Source: Clostridia bacterium (GTDB lineage: Bacteria > Bacillota > Clostridia > Christensenellales > Borkfalkiaceae). From it: a stretch of 46,912 nt of DNA. The DNA is taken from NCBI GenBank assembly GCA_021204585.1, contig JAJPZC010000096.1:4533-51444 (forward strand), in the 5' to 3' direction. Made by a program: the position numbers and the translations under genes. Every line of letters starts with the position of its first letter. Positions within the stretch are counted from its first letter, which is position 1. The notes below the pieces were generated by a model. It did no database searches, was not told the origin of the DNA, and saw only the letters and a program-made list of their open reading frames with translations. This document shows, one piece after another, positions 20,329 through 46,912 of the stretch.

Positions 20329-20807
20329 AATAGTCTACCTTCCGTATCCAGACGCAGCAAGAAGCACCTTTAGGTGCCCTGCCACGATATTTTTCCTTGT
20401 AAAGTATAGCACAGGAACTGAGGGTTTAGCAACTCAAATTTGAGACAAAAAGTACAGATATGTCTTGCTAAACGTCCCTCTCTGAACTGAACCTGCCCCT
20501 TTCCGGACTGCAGGGCGGGCGCCTGAGGCATGCGTGGTCATGCGGCCTTCCTGAGGACTTCCGCAGGCTCTTCGGACAGAATAAGAGACGGACCAGCTTT
20601 AGTCCGCCTCTTAGAGAGAATATGAAAAAAAGTTGAGTGTATATCGTAGTTGGAGTGAGGCGGCTTCATTGCAATTTCCGCTTCAGCGATTGCATTATAT
20701 ACAGCAAATGTGAAAACTGTGTGAAGTTTGTATTAGGATTTCATTATTTTCTCTGGATTTGTTGGACTTCTCAAGGTTTGTTACTGCCGGGCTTCTCAGT
20801 GTCCGGC

Positions 20808-20910
20808 GGGCTTGTTAGGGCCAGTCAGGGCCTGCCGGGCTTATTAGGCCAGTCAGGGCCTGCCGGGCTTATTAGGGCCTGTCAGGGCCTGCCGGGCTTA
20901 TTAAGGCCGG
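20808..20910. repeat. GC-rich tandem repeat, 28-29 bp unit, 3.6 copies, overlapping the downstream stop codon
   Basis: gggcttRttaggRccagtcagggcctgcc at 20808, 20837, 20865 and partial at 20894. Confidence 0.9.
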
Positions 20911-22436
20911 TCGAACTTCCTGAAGATCTTCTCGGCGGTGCCTATGCCGTCCGCTGCGGAGCTGGTTATGCCTCCGGAATAGCCGGAGCCCTCGCCGCAG
21001 GGGTACAGGCCGGCAACGGAGACGGACTCGCCGCTGTCCTTGCGCACTATGCGCACTGGTGATGAGAAGCGGCTCTCGACGCCCGTCAAGATGGCGTCCG
21101 GGCTTGCAAAGCCCTTTATGCGCTTGTCTATGTCGGGGATGGCAAGCTTTAAGGCGTTAGTTACGGACTCGGGAAGGTACTCCTCCAGGGGGGCGAAGAC
21201 GGTGCCTATGGCGTATGTGGGCTTCACTAAGCCGAAGTGGTCGGAGCATCTGCCGGCGAGGAAGTCGCCCACGCGCTGCACGGGAGCCTTGTAGGTGCGG
21301 CCGCCGGCGGCGTATGCCTTGCGCTCTATCGCGCGCTGGAACTCCATGCCTGCGAAGAGGCCTTCGCCGAAATCGGAGAGCTCCATCTGGACCATGAGGG
21401 CTGAGTTGGAGTTGCGCCCGTCACGGGCATGGTTGCTCATGCCGTTGGTGACAAGCCCGCCGTACTCGCTTGCCGCGGGTATGACAACGCCTCCGGGGCA
21501 CATGCAGAAGGTGAAGACGCTGCGCTCAGAGGCGTGCGAAACGGCCTTGTAATCCGCTGCGGGCAGGTACTTGGCCATGGGGCCGTACTGCGCCCTGGAT
21601 ATGTCTTCCTGCACATGCTCTATGCGCACTCCCACGGCAAAGGCTCTGGGCTCCATGTATACGCCCTTCCTGTTGAGCATCTCAAGGGTGTCCCTGGCGG
21701 AATGGCCTATTGCAAGGACAACTGCATCATAACGGTGCTCCGTAAGGAGGCCGGAGCGGACGTCTATGACCTGTATGGCCTGGAGCTTCCCGTCCTTGAC
21801 CTTTATGCCCGTAAGCCTTGTGTTGAACATGTAAGAGCCGCCGTTGTTGAGGATGTACTTGCGCATGTTCTTAAGGACGTTGTACAGGATGTCGCTACCC
21901 ACGTGGGGCTTGTTGGAATAGAGGACCTCGCGGGGCGCGCCGAAGTGCACGAATGTCTCAAGGACTTTCGTGTTGTAAGGATCCTTTGTGCCGGTGTTGA
22001 GCTTTCCGTCTGAAAAGGCGCCTGCCCCTCCTTCGCCGAACTGCACGTTGCAGTTGTCATCCAGGTTGCCGTTCATCATGAACTCGTTGACGGCTATCCT
22101 TCTGTCCTCCACGGGAGAGCCCCGCTCAATAATCACCGGCTTTACGCCGTGCGCAATGAGCTGCACGGCGCAGAGAAGCCCTGCGGGCCCGCAGCCTACT
22201 ATGGCCACGGAAGGAGGGTTGGAAAGCTTCTTCAGGGGCGTGGGCTCCGGCGGCACATCATCAGAGAATATGATGGAGTAGAGCCAGAAGATGTTCTTCT
22301 TGTCCCTCGCATCCAGTGACTTTTTAACTATCCTGAAGTATGCCGGCTCATGCCCCAGCTTCTTCACTGCCATGTCATGAAGCCTGCTCTCACTCTCATC
22401 CGGCTTCAGTTTGATGTTGTCCAGCCTGTATTCCAT
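20901..22436 (-). CDS. FAD-dependent dehydrogenase-like protein
   Basis: PSVAIVGCGPAGLLCAVQLIAHG, GEGGAGAFSDGKLNTG, GEGSGYSGGITSSAADG. Confidence 0.85.
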   Translation of the reverse strand: MEYRLDNIKLKPDESESRLHDMAVKKLGHEPAYFRIVKKSLDARDKKNIFWLYSIIFSDDVPPEPTPLKKLSNPPSVAIVGCGPAGLLCAVQLIAHGVKPVIIERGSPVEDRRIAVNEFMMNGNLDDNCNVQFGEGGAGAFSDGKLNTGTKDPYNTKVLETFVHFGAPREVLYSNKPHVGSDILYNVLKNMRKYILNNGGSYMFNTRLTGIKVKDGKLQAIQVIDVRSGLLTEHRYDAVVLAIGHSARDTLEMLNRKGVYMEPRAFAVGVRIEHVQEDISRAQYGPMAKYLPAADYKAVSHASERSVFTFCMCPGGVVIPAASEYGGLVTNGMSNHARDGRNSNSALMVQMELSDFGEGLFAGMEFQRAIERKAYAAGGRTYKAPVQRVGDFLAGRCSDHFGLVKPTYAIGTVFAPLEEYLPESVTNALKLAIPDIDKRIKGFASPDAILTGVESRFSSPVRIVRKDSGESVSVAGLYPCGEGSGYSGGITSSAADGIGTAEKIFRKFDRP

Positions 22437-40049: not shown

Positions 40050-40919
40050 ATGTTCATTGCTTTAAACGGGCAGCTAGCCAGCGGAAAGAGCACCATATGC
40101 AGGATACTGGAGAGAAGATACGGCTTCTCCACATTCTCCACGGGCCAGATACAGAGGGCCCTCGCAAACGAGATGGGCATTACCACGCTGGAGCTCAATG
40201 AGCTTGGCATGAAGGACTACTCATATGATTACATCATAGACGGCAGGCTTTCACAGTACGCAAAAGAGCACACGGATGAAGACATAATCTTTGACTCCCG
40301 CATGGCCTGGCACTTCGTGGAGGGCGCATACAAGATACACCTCCTCGTGTCCCCCGCCATTGCTGCAGAGCGCGTATACGGCAAGCGCGAAACAAAGGAA
40401 GAGACGTACAAGAGCCTGCAGGAGGCCATGGAGGACCTCATTAAGCGCCGCCAGGTTGAGGCCGAGAGGTACAAGATAGTCTACAACGCCAACATGATGG
40501 ACTTCAGAAACTATGACCTCATCATAGACACCAGCACCCTAACCCCTGAGGGCATCTGCGACATCATCCACAGGCACATCTCAGGCCTTGTCCAGGACGC
40601 CTGCCCTTCCATATACCTCTCCCCTCAGAACATCTACCCCTCAGGGATGGCAGAGCCTGCAGGCGACCCCGTGGACACAGTGCAGGTTCTTAAGGTTGAG
40701 GATTCCATGTACCTGTACAGAGGCGCTGCAAAGGTCATTGCCGCCAACAGAATCCAGGTGCCGGTTTTAAGGGCCGTTATGCTTGCGCAGGATGATGAAA
40801 TAATCCCCGGATCCAACATATCTGCCGGGAAATACGTGAAGGCCACAAAGGCAGACATTGCTGTGTGGGAAAAGGAAAACGGCTTCACGTACGGCTATCT
40901 CCCGGACAGGATACGCTAG
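40050..40919 (+). CDS. Cytidylate kinase-like P-loop protein with ParB-like C-terminal region, copy 1
   Basis: MFIALNGQLASGKSTICRILERRYGFSTFSTGQIQRALANEMG; C-terminal IYLSPQNIYPSG...VQVLKVEDSMYLYRGAAKVIAANRIQVPVLRAVML. Confidence 0.75.
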   Translation: MFIALNGQLASGKSTICRILERRYGFSTFSTGQIQRALANEMGITTLELNELGMKDYSYDYIIDGRLSQYAKEHTDEDIIFDSRMAWHFVEGAYKIHLLVSPAIAAERVYGKRETKEETYKSLQEAMEDLIKRRQVEAERYKIVYNANMMDFRNYDLIIDTSTLTPEGICDIIHRHISGLVQDACPSIYLSPQNIYPSGMAEPAGDPVDTVQVLKVEDSMYLYRGAAKVIAANRIQVPVLRAVMLAQDDEIIPGSNISAGKYVKATKADIAVWEKENGFTYGYLPDRIR

Positions 40920-44732: not shown

Positions 44733-45602
44733 TCAATGTATCCTTTCCGGCATATAACCGTATTCAAAGCCGTTCTCTTTCTCCCACGCTGCGATGTCTG
44801 CTTTTGAGGTCTTCACGAAGTCTTTGGCTGAGATGGATGTGCCGGGGATTATCTCATCATCCTGCGCAAGCATCACGGCATGCAGGACGGGGAGGTCCAG
44901 CTTGTTGGATGCTATGACCTTGCGCGCTCCTTTGTACAGGTACATTGAATCTTCTACCTTCAGGACCTGCACGATGTCCGCAGGCCCGTCTGTCGGCTCT
45001 GCCTGTCCGGAAGGATATATATTCTTGGGAGAGAGGTAAATAGCGGGAGAGGCCTCTTCCGCAAGGCCTGAGATATGCCTGTGGATGATGTCGCAGATGC
45101 CTTCGGGGTCCAGGGTGCTGGTATCTATGATGAGGTCATAATTTCTGAAGTCCATCATATTGGCGTGGTATATGACCTTGTACCTTTCCGCTTCAACCTG
45201 GCGCCTTTTGATAAGGTCCTCCATGGCTTCCTGGACGCTGTGGTACGTCTCTTCCTTTGTCTCTCTCTTTCCGTACACGCGCTCCGCTGCAATGATGGGG
45301 GAGACGAGGAGATGGATCTTGTACGCGCCCTCCACGAAGTGCCAGGCCATGCGGGAGTCAAAAATGATGTCCTTGTCCGTGTTTTCCTTGGCGTAATCTG
45401 AGAGCCTGCCGTCTATGATGTAATCATAATGGTAGTCCTTCATGCCCAGCTCATTGAGCTGCAGCGTGGTTATTCCCATCTCGTTCGCAAGGGCCCTCTG
45501 TATCTGCCCCGTGGAGAAGGTGGAAAATCCGTATCTTCTTTCCAGTATCCTGCATATAGTGCTCTTTCCGCTGGCAAGCTGCCCGTTTAAAGCAATGAAC
45601 AT
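44733..45602 (-). CDS. Cytidylate kinase-like P-loop protein with ParB-like C-terminal region, copy 2 (inverted paralog)
   Basis: Same length (289 aa) and near-identical to 40050-40919, opposite strand. Confidence 0.75.
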   Translation of the reverse strand: MFIALNGQLASGKSTICRILERRYGFSTFSTGQIQRALANEMGITTLQLNELGMKDYHYDYIIDGRLSDYAKENTDKDIIFDSRMAWHFVEGAYKIHLLVSPIIAAERVYGKRETKEETYHSVQEAMEDLIKRRQVEAERYKVIYHANMMDFRNYDLIIDTSTLDPEGICDIIHRHISGLAEEASPAIYLSPKNIYPSGQAEPTDGPADIVQVLKVEDSMYLYKGARKVIASNKLDLPVLHAVMLAQDDEIIPGTSISAKDFVKTSKADIAAWEKENGFEYGYMPERIH

Positions 45603-45924: not shown

Positions 45925-46521
45925 ATGATTATGAAAAAGAACGATGTGAAAAGAGAGAGATTTGAGCATGCGATCCTGCTGTATTTCATTTGCTGCAAGG
46001 TGTGCGCAAGAATAGAGGAAGAAGGGCTTGAAGACAAGGAGGCACTTGCGAGCTTGTACAATTCGCAGATGAGGGCCGCCCTGGAGCAGGAAAGCACAAA
46101 CCTATGGAAGCTTGACCCGAAGGATCTGTACGACATGTACCGCGAGGAGCAGGAGACAGGGGGCATTAATCTGGAGAAAGCCTTAAATAAGGCCGCTCTT
46201 GTGGAGGATACGTTTGAGGATAAATTGCAGCGGATGGACGTTGATCACGATGACTGCTTATATTACAGAAAGGAAGACGAGCCCCGTGTGAACGATGAAG
46301 CGGATTATGCGATTCTTGCCATAGAACTATACTGCAATTACAGGAATCTGACGGGGAAAGCGGTCATGGACCTCTTCTATTCGAACGGAATGCTGGAATA
46401 CCTTCTTGTAATTGCGGACGCCCTGCTTCTCGTTGGCCTGGATTTTGCCATGAAACAGATAGATAAGCTTCTTGAGGAGAAGGGCGTGAAGTTTGAAAAG
46501 CCTGGCAGGCCTTTTCACTGA
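45925..46521 (+). CDS. Hypothetical protein with DUF3791-like C-terminus
   Basis: DEADYAILAIELYCNYRNLTGKAVMDLFYSNGMLEYLLVIADALLLVG resembles DUF3791. Confidence 0.55.
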   Translation: MIMKKNDVKRERFEHAILLYFICCKVCARIEEEGLEDKEALASLYNSQMRAALEQESTNLWKLDPKDLYDMYREEQETGGINLEKALNKAALVEDTFEDKLQRMDVDHDDCLYYRKEDEPRVNDEADYAILAIELYCNYRNLTGKAVMDLFYSNGMLEYLLVIADALLLVGLDFAMKQIDKLLEEKGVKFEKPGRPFH

Positions 46522-46589
46522 AATCTTCATCGCATTTGTGGCTATATATCTCAAATGGGTTGATGACCCCTGAGGCTATGCCCCGGGGT

Positions 46590-46912
46590 CTATTTACAAC
46601 TTTTGAGTTGACGGACCCCGGAACCGGGGCTATTTCCAATTTCTGAGTTGACGGCTACCGGAACGCGGGGCTATTTCCAACTTCTGAGTTGACGGCCACC
46701 GAAGACCGGCGCTATTTATAACTTTTGACTTGATAGATTCCGTCATTCCTGGAGATTCTCCAGTCAGCAAGAACGGTGGCTATTTACAACTTTTGAGTTG
46801 ATGAATTCCGTCATCCCGGGAGATCCTCCGGCCAGCCAAAAACCGAAGATATTTACAACTTTTGAGTTGATGAACCCCATAGCCCAGAGGGAGCCTCCGG
46901 CCGGCTAAGAAC
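46590..46912. repeat. Interspersed hairpin repeat array, at least 6 units, running off the window end
   Basis: ctatttacaacttttgagttga-like units start at about 46590, 46630, 46671, 46712, 46780 and 46849. Confidence 0.9.

Follow-up and report, generated by a model that had tools for sequence, protein, structure and literature searches.

The window analysed here, a 46,912-nt stretch of DNA from a Clostridia genome, ends in a tandem array of short repeats. The array occupies its last 325 bases (46588-46912), where a 22-nt motif occurs six times in the same orientation, and is preceded by a degenerate further unit and a 198-aa gene. The features at this end of the window are as follows:

45925-46521, + strand: neighbouring gene, 198 aa, with a sub-threshold DUF3791 match at residues 127-186
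46540-46587, + strand: U0, degenerate first unit, GGCTATATATCTCAAATGGGTTGATGACCCC... (nhmmer 12.4 bits, E 0.02; pattern search)
46588-46627, + strand: U1, 40 bp, conserved core at 46589-46614 (31.1 bits)
46628-46668, + strand: U2, 41 bp (29.9 bits)
46669-46709, + strand: U3, 41 bp, the unit closest to the family model (37.3 bits)
46710-46777, + strand: U4, long unit of 68 bp (motif match, spacing, TRF)
46778-46846, + strand: U5, long unit of 69 bp (motif match, spacing, unit profile, TRF)
46847-46912, + strand: U6, long unit cut by the contig end (motif match, spacing, unit profile)

The motif copies start at 46591, 46631, 46672, 46713, 46781 and 46850 with 0-3 mismatches each, while no copy is expected in shuffled sequence. 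Their start-to-start offsets are 40, 41, 41, 68 and 69 bp, and TRF likewise divides the region into an array of 41-bp period (46583-46733) and one of 68-bp period (46711-46874). This confirms the six copies, the offsets and the two unit lengths that an earlier note had reported from the sequence. A seventh unit, weak and degenerate, was found upstream at 46540-46575 by nhmmer with a unit profile drawn from both species that carry the repeat (see below), and was also picked up by pattern search. At its other end the array is cut off, because the end of the window is the end of contig C77 (51,444 bp) in a 199-contig MAG. The earlier note had the array start just after a DUF3791-like gene. Its position was right, with about 19 nt between the stop codon of the 198-aa gene and the array, but the DUF3791 match (21.2 bits) falls below the Pfam cut-off of 25. 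The gene is a neighbour of the array and not a conserved partner.

Elsewhere in the window there is a 46-bp tandem repeat at 1-101 (2.2 copies, 100% identical), which recurs in a further stretch of the contig some 100 bp upstream and is otherwise absent from the four genomes searched, and a 29-bp tandem repeat at 20807-20912 (3.7 copies). Two similar 289-aa cytidylate kinase-like genes lie in opposite orientation at 40050-40919 and 44733-45602, and between them are a cluster of six tRNAs and a RelB-type antitoxin gene with a 121-aa partner.

A motif scan of species genomes led to one relevant contig, L014, from a Clostridia MAG (genome G061); two other matches, L015 and L016, contain no such array in the repeat listing. 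PNPase of the window's genome is 95% identical to that of G061 and 82-86% identical to that of other congeners, and G061 is the nearest relative of the window's genome among those compared. The same 95% identity rules out misbinning of the window contig. A sequence-only family model (R1) was built from 36 units, with hits counted at E <= 0.01. In G061 it gives 58 hits on 12 contigs, bearing out the repeat family that the earlier note had offered as one option. These units form tandem arrays of 2-13 units each, between unrelated genes, in at least a dozen intergenic gaps. The note had taken a motif scattered singly across the genome, like a REP element, as grounds for giving up its array; the units are indeed scattered in the sister species, but as tandem arrays and not as single REPs.

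In the window's own genome the model gives six hits, five in the array and one marginal hit on another contig, and the 22-nt motif is found nowhere outside the array at up to three mismatches. Only one array was therefore seen in this 199-contig MAG, from which others may have been lost. The model finds nothing in 36 congeners or in two other genomes of the order, and under stricter filters 297 sampled genomes of the order, the window's own apart, gave no family match. An early pattern written across the junction between units (GTTGAYGG...GGSCTATWT) found only the window copies among 41 genomes, and blastn of the window array and one sister array against phages and plasmids returned no match. 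Among the genomes compared, only two close species carry the family.

From the aligned units, it is evident that the constant part of the family is a gap-free, bipartite core of 26 bp, GCTATWT-NNAANNNNN-GAGTTGAYGG, which is near-invariant and includes at least seven invariant positions. It is followed on its 3' side by a GC-rich tail of 13-17 nt that varies in length and sequence. Despite this variation the spacing is narrow. Of 43 spacings up to 52 bp, 41 fall within 39-48 bp, with peaks at 42 (19 cases, exactly), 41 (10) and 40 (5). A second class of 68-72 bp (8 cases) is present in both species, and short words such as CTCCGGCC recur at corresponding places in the tails of its units, each match being weak when taken alone. 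The units are not palindromic, and all units of an array point the same way. As in CRISPR, conserved and variable segments alternate; unlike in CRISPR, the variable segments are short, at about 13-17 nt in the short units, and mutually related, and there are many arrays per genome. The earlier note was thus correct in describing the inter-repeat segments as related and in setting the array apart from CRISPR.

The arrays occupy intergenic gaps next to hpt, the EF-Tu gene, glpK, rplI, aspS and others, names that come mostly from reading translations, with a profile check only for the phosphoribosyltransferase domain of hpt. The conserved neighbouring gene that the earlier note would have counted in its favour is not found among them. 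Several arrays begin a short way downstream of a same-strand stop codon or terminator-like hairpin. Others lie upstream of genes, so a strict link to 3' ends does not hold. Like the window's contig, four contigs of G061 (C13, C74, C180 and C212) stop no more than about 15 bp from a unit, as expected where repeats break an assembly. Similarity between units is higher inside an array than across arrays; none of 2000 permutations was as extreme, and this is a mark of local tandem duplication. A search of the window's genome with the flanking sequences of nine G061 arrays gave twelve matches, and no unit is present at any of these loci. For three sites (hpt, glpK and L051) the two flanks were recovered on a single contig without an intervening array; for the others the short flanks used gave one flank or none. 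The orthologous sites recovered in the window's genome are without arrays, and therefore arrays come and go.

Other repeats are found in the two genomes. A tandem family around CGGTAAGCAGTTTTTACAT, with a period of about 23 bp (48 as a double), lies close to main-family arrays of the sister genome (L050 1711-1774 and 2304-2415; L089 3347-3426). A 15-bp tandem repeat with palindromic ends, CTGAAGAAAAATTCA, lies beside three sister-genome arrays and occurs once in the window's genome (L050 1900-1944, L051 1935-1978, L085 2205-2246, L129 1007-1088). Runs of AAAGCTCATTT and TTTAAACCGCCA occur in both genomes (L113 15298-15592, L127 66-215) and recall multi-repeat insertion-sequence ends. Two tandem repeats lie at contig ends in the window's genome, one of 46 bp (L133 1-214, at the start) and one of 42 bp (L135 5749-5887, at the end), the latter open in all six frames and possibly coding. 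A TRF survey covered samples of G061 (352 kb), of the window's genome (207 kb) and of three congeners (400 kb). In the window's genome it revealed other tandem repeats, of 29-46 bp and unrelated to the family; as the samples were chosen by contig and are unmatched for coding content, this is descriptive only.

Taken together, the window array is best explained as one array of a lineage-specific, interspersed intergenic minisatellite. We give this reading a probability of roughly 0.78. The features by which an interspersed minisatellite is known were both found: tandem arrays at many sites, in the sister genome, and presence or absence between species at orthologous sites. In such a family the GC-rich linker would connect the 26-bp cores so that they recur about every 42 bp, equal to four helical turns, or about every 70 bp. 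Judging from the similarity within arrays, these would grow, shrink and homogenise locally through replication slippage or unequal recombination, while a copying route of some kind would occasionally have seeded arrays at many intergenic sites. The core may persist since it is recognised by a DNA-binding protein, or by the copying route itself. Neither a binding protein nor a copying machinery was identified. Protein binding, which was among the options of the earlier note, is now the best guess for the function of the array; the more specific claim that protein recognition keeps the core constant, which draws on the gap-free and conserved core, is less likely than not when taken alone. Against the minisatellite reading count the long class, since 70 bp does not make up a whole number of helical turns, and the single array seen in the window's own genome. 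A stronger version, in which a putative lineage-specific protein would be aligned on the phased 42-bp core every four turns and would organise the nucleoid or insulate genes, is improbable. If true, it would explain why such bacterial tandem repeats keep a constant size rather than a constant sequence.

To a similarly low degree, the arrays could be clusters of transposase-binding sites, as MITE-like, non-autonomous ends of a hitherto undiscovered transposon whose transposase would bind the bipartite core. That the core is gap-free, that units keep one orientation and that arrays are present or absent at orthologous sites would all suit such ends. However, no transposase was noticed beside the arrays read, the flanks are mostly housekeeping genes, and up to 13 units occur in an array, which is more than usual for transposon ends.

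A REP/BIME-type element mobilised by a REP-associated tyrosine transposase (RAYT) is harder to accept. The family is, like these elements, short, repetitive, extragenic, interspersed and clustered, and the sister genome has a Y1_Tnp gene, with a short weak match in the window's genome and none in four congeners. REPs in BIMEs, however, alternate in orientation, and every RAYT gene is described as lying between inverted REPs (PMC2817692). The units are instead non-palindromic and of a single orientation within an array, and no RAYT flanked by units was found: the only full Y1_Tnp gene in these two incomplete genomes adjoins a tnpB-like ORF, as in IS200/IS605, in a 2.3-kb stretch without family units.

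Slightly less credible again is a reading that the earlier note had among its options, a structured small-RNA or guide-like array whose units would be transcribed and processed as hairpin RNAs. It has the regular spacing in its favour, along with the possible GC hairpins in some tails and the CAACT-TTTG-AGTTG stem into which some window copies can indeed fold. This stem does not hold for the family as a whole. It forms wherever the variable box is by chance complementary to the constant AGTTG and is just a local version of that box; across the family, only 54% of its pair cells are standard pairs, and it scores lower in covariation than the same stem shifted by one or two columns. For the tail hairpin, shuffled columns give results that are at least as good. 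RNAalifold gives no consensus structure for the units, most of which fold no better than shuffles (z-scores -1.2 to +0.9), and no Rfam family matched in the arrays. With the variable segments also related between units, neither the hairpin units nor the guide array of the earlier note is upheld.

The least likely reading is that of tandem promoters, with TTGAC of one unit as the -35 and TATAT of the next as the -10: these two most conserved words resemble the hexamers and lie 16-21 bp apart in nearly all short units, but the spacing is loose, peaking at 19 rather than 17 and reaching about 46 in long units, the constant spacing is the one within the unit, a consensus scanner found no promoter in the arrays, and many arrays lie downstream of genes.

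The closest description found for the minisatellite is that of the constant-size tandem repeats of Bacillus and other Firmicutes (Subirana and Messeguer 2021; PMC8161180). These come in sizes of 52 or 20-21 nt only, in arrays mostly of 4-10 units, with short conserved words in otherwise variable units and a species-specific sequence common only to close relatives; they differ between strains, and both protein binding and RNA have been proposed as their function (PMC8161180). The present family shares with them its short arrays, near-constant unit length and near-invariant core words, its confinement to two close species and the differing presence of arrays between relatives. It differs in that its units of 42 and 68-72 nt belong to neither reported size class and in that arrays at different sites share one gap-free 26-bp core. 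In organisation, it also resembles the Mycobacterial interspersed repetitive units (MIRU-VNTR), with tandem arrays of related units at many sites, a likeness that spans unrelated lineages and was drawn without comparing sequences.

The family is new and of the constant-size tandem-repeat kind. For metagenomics it carries a warning, since contigs break at such arrays, which can also be mistaken for guide or CRISPR-like ones. With it, the little-understood size-constant tandem repeats of bacteria gain a hitherto undescribed family from an uncultured Clostridia lineage. Its 42-bp period falls between the 21 and 52 bp of Bacillus, all of them near whole helical turns, and its defined 26-bp core makes the idea of protein binding testable.
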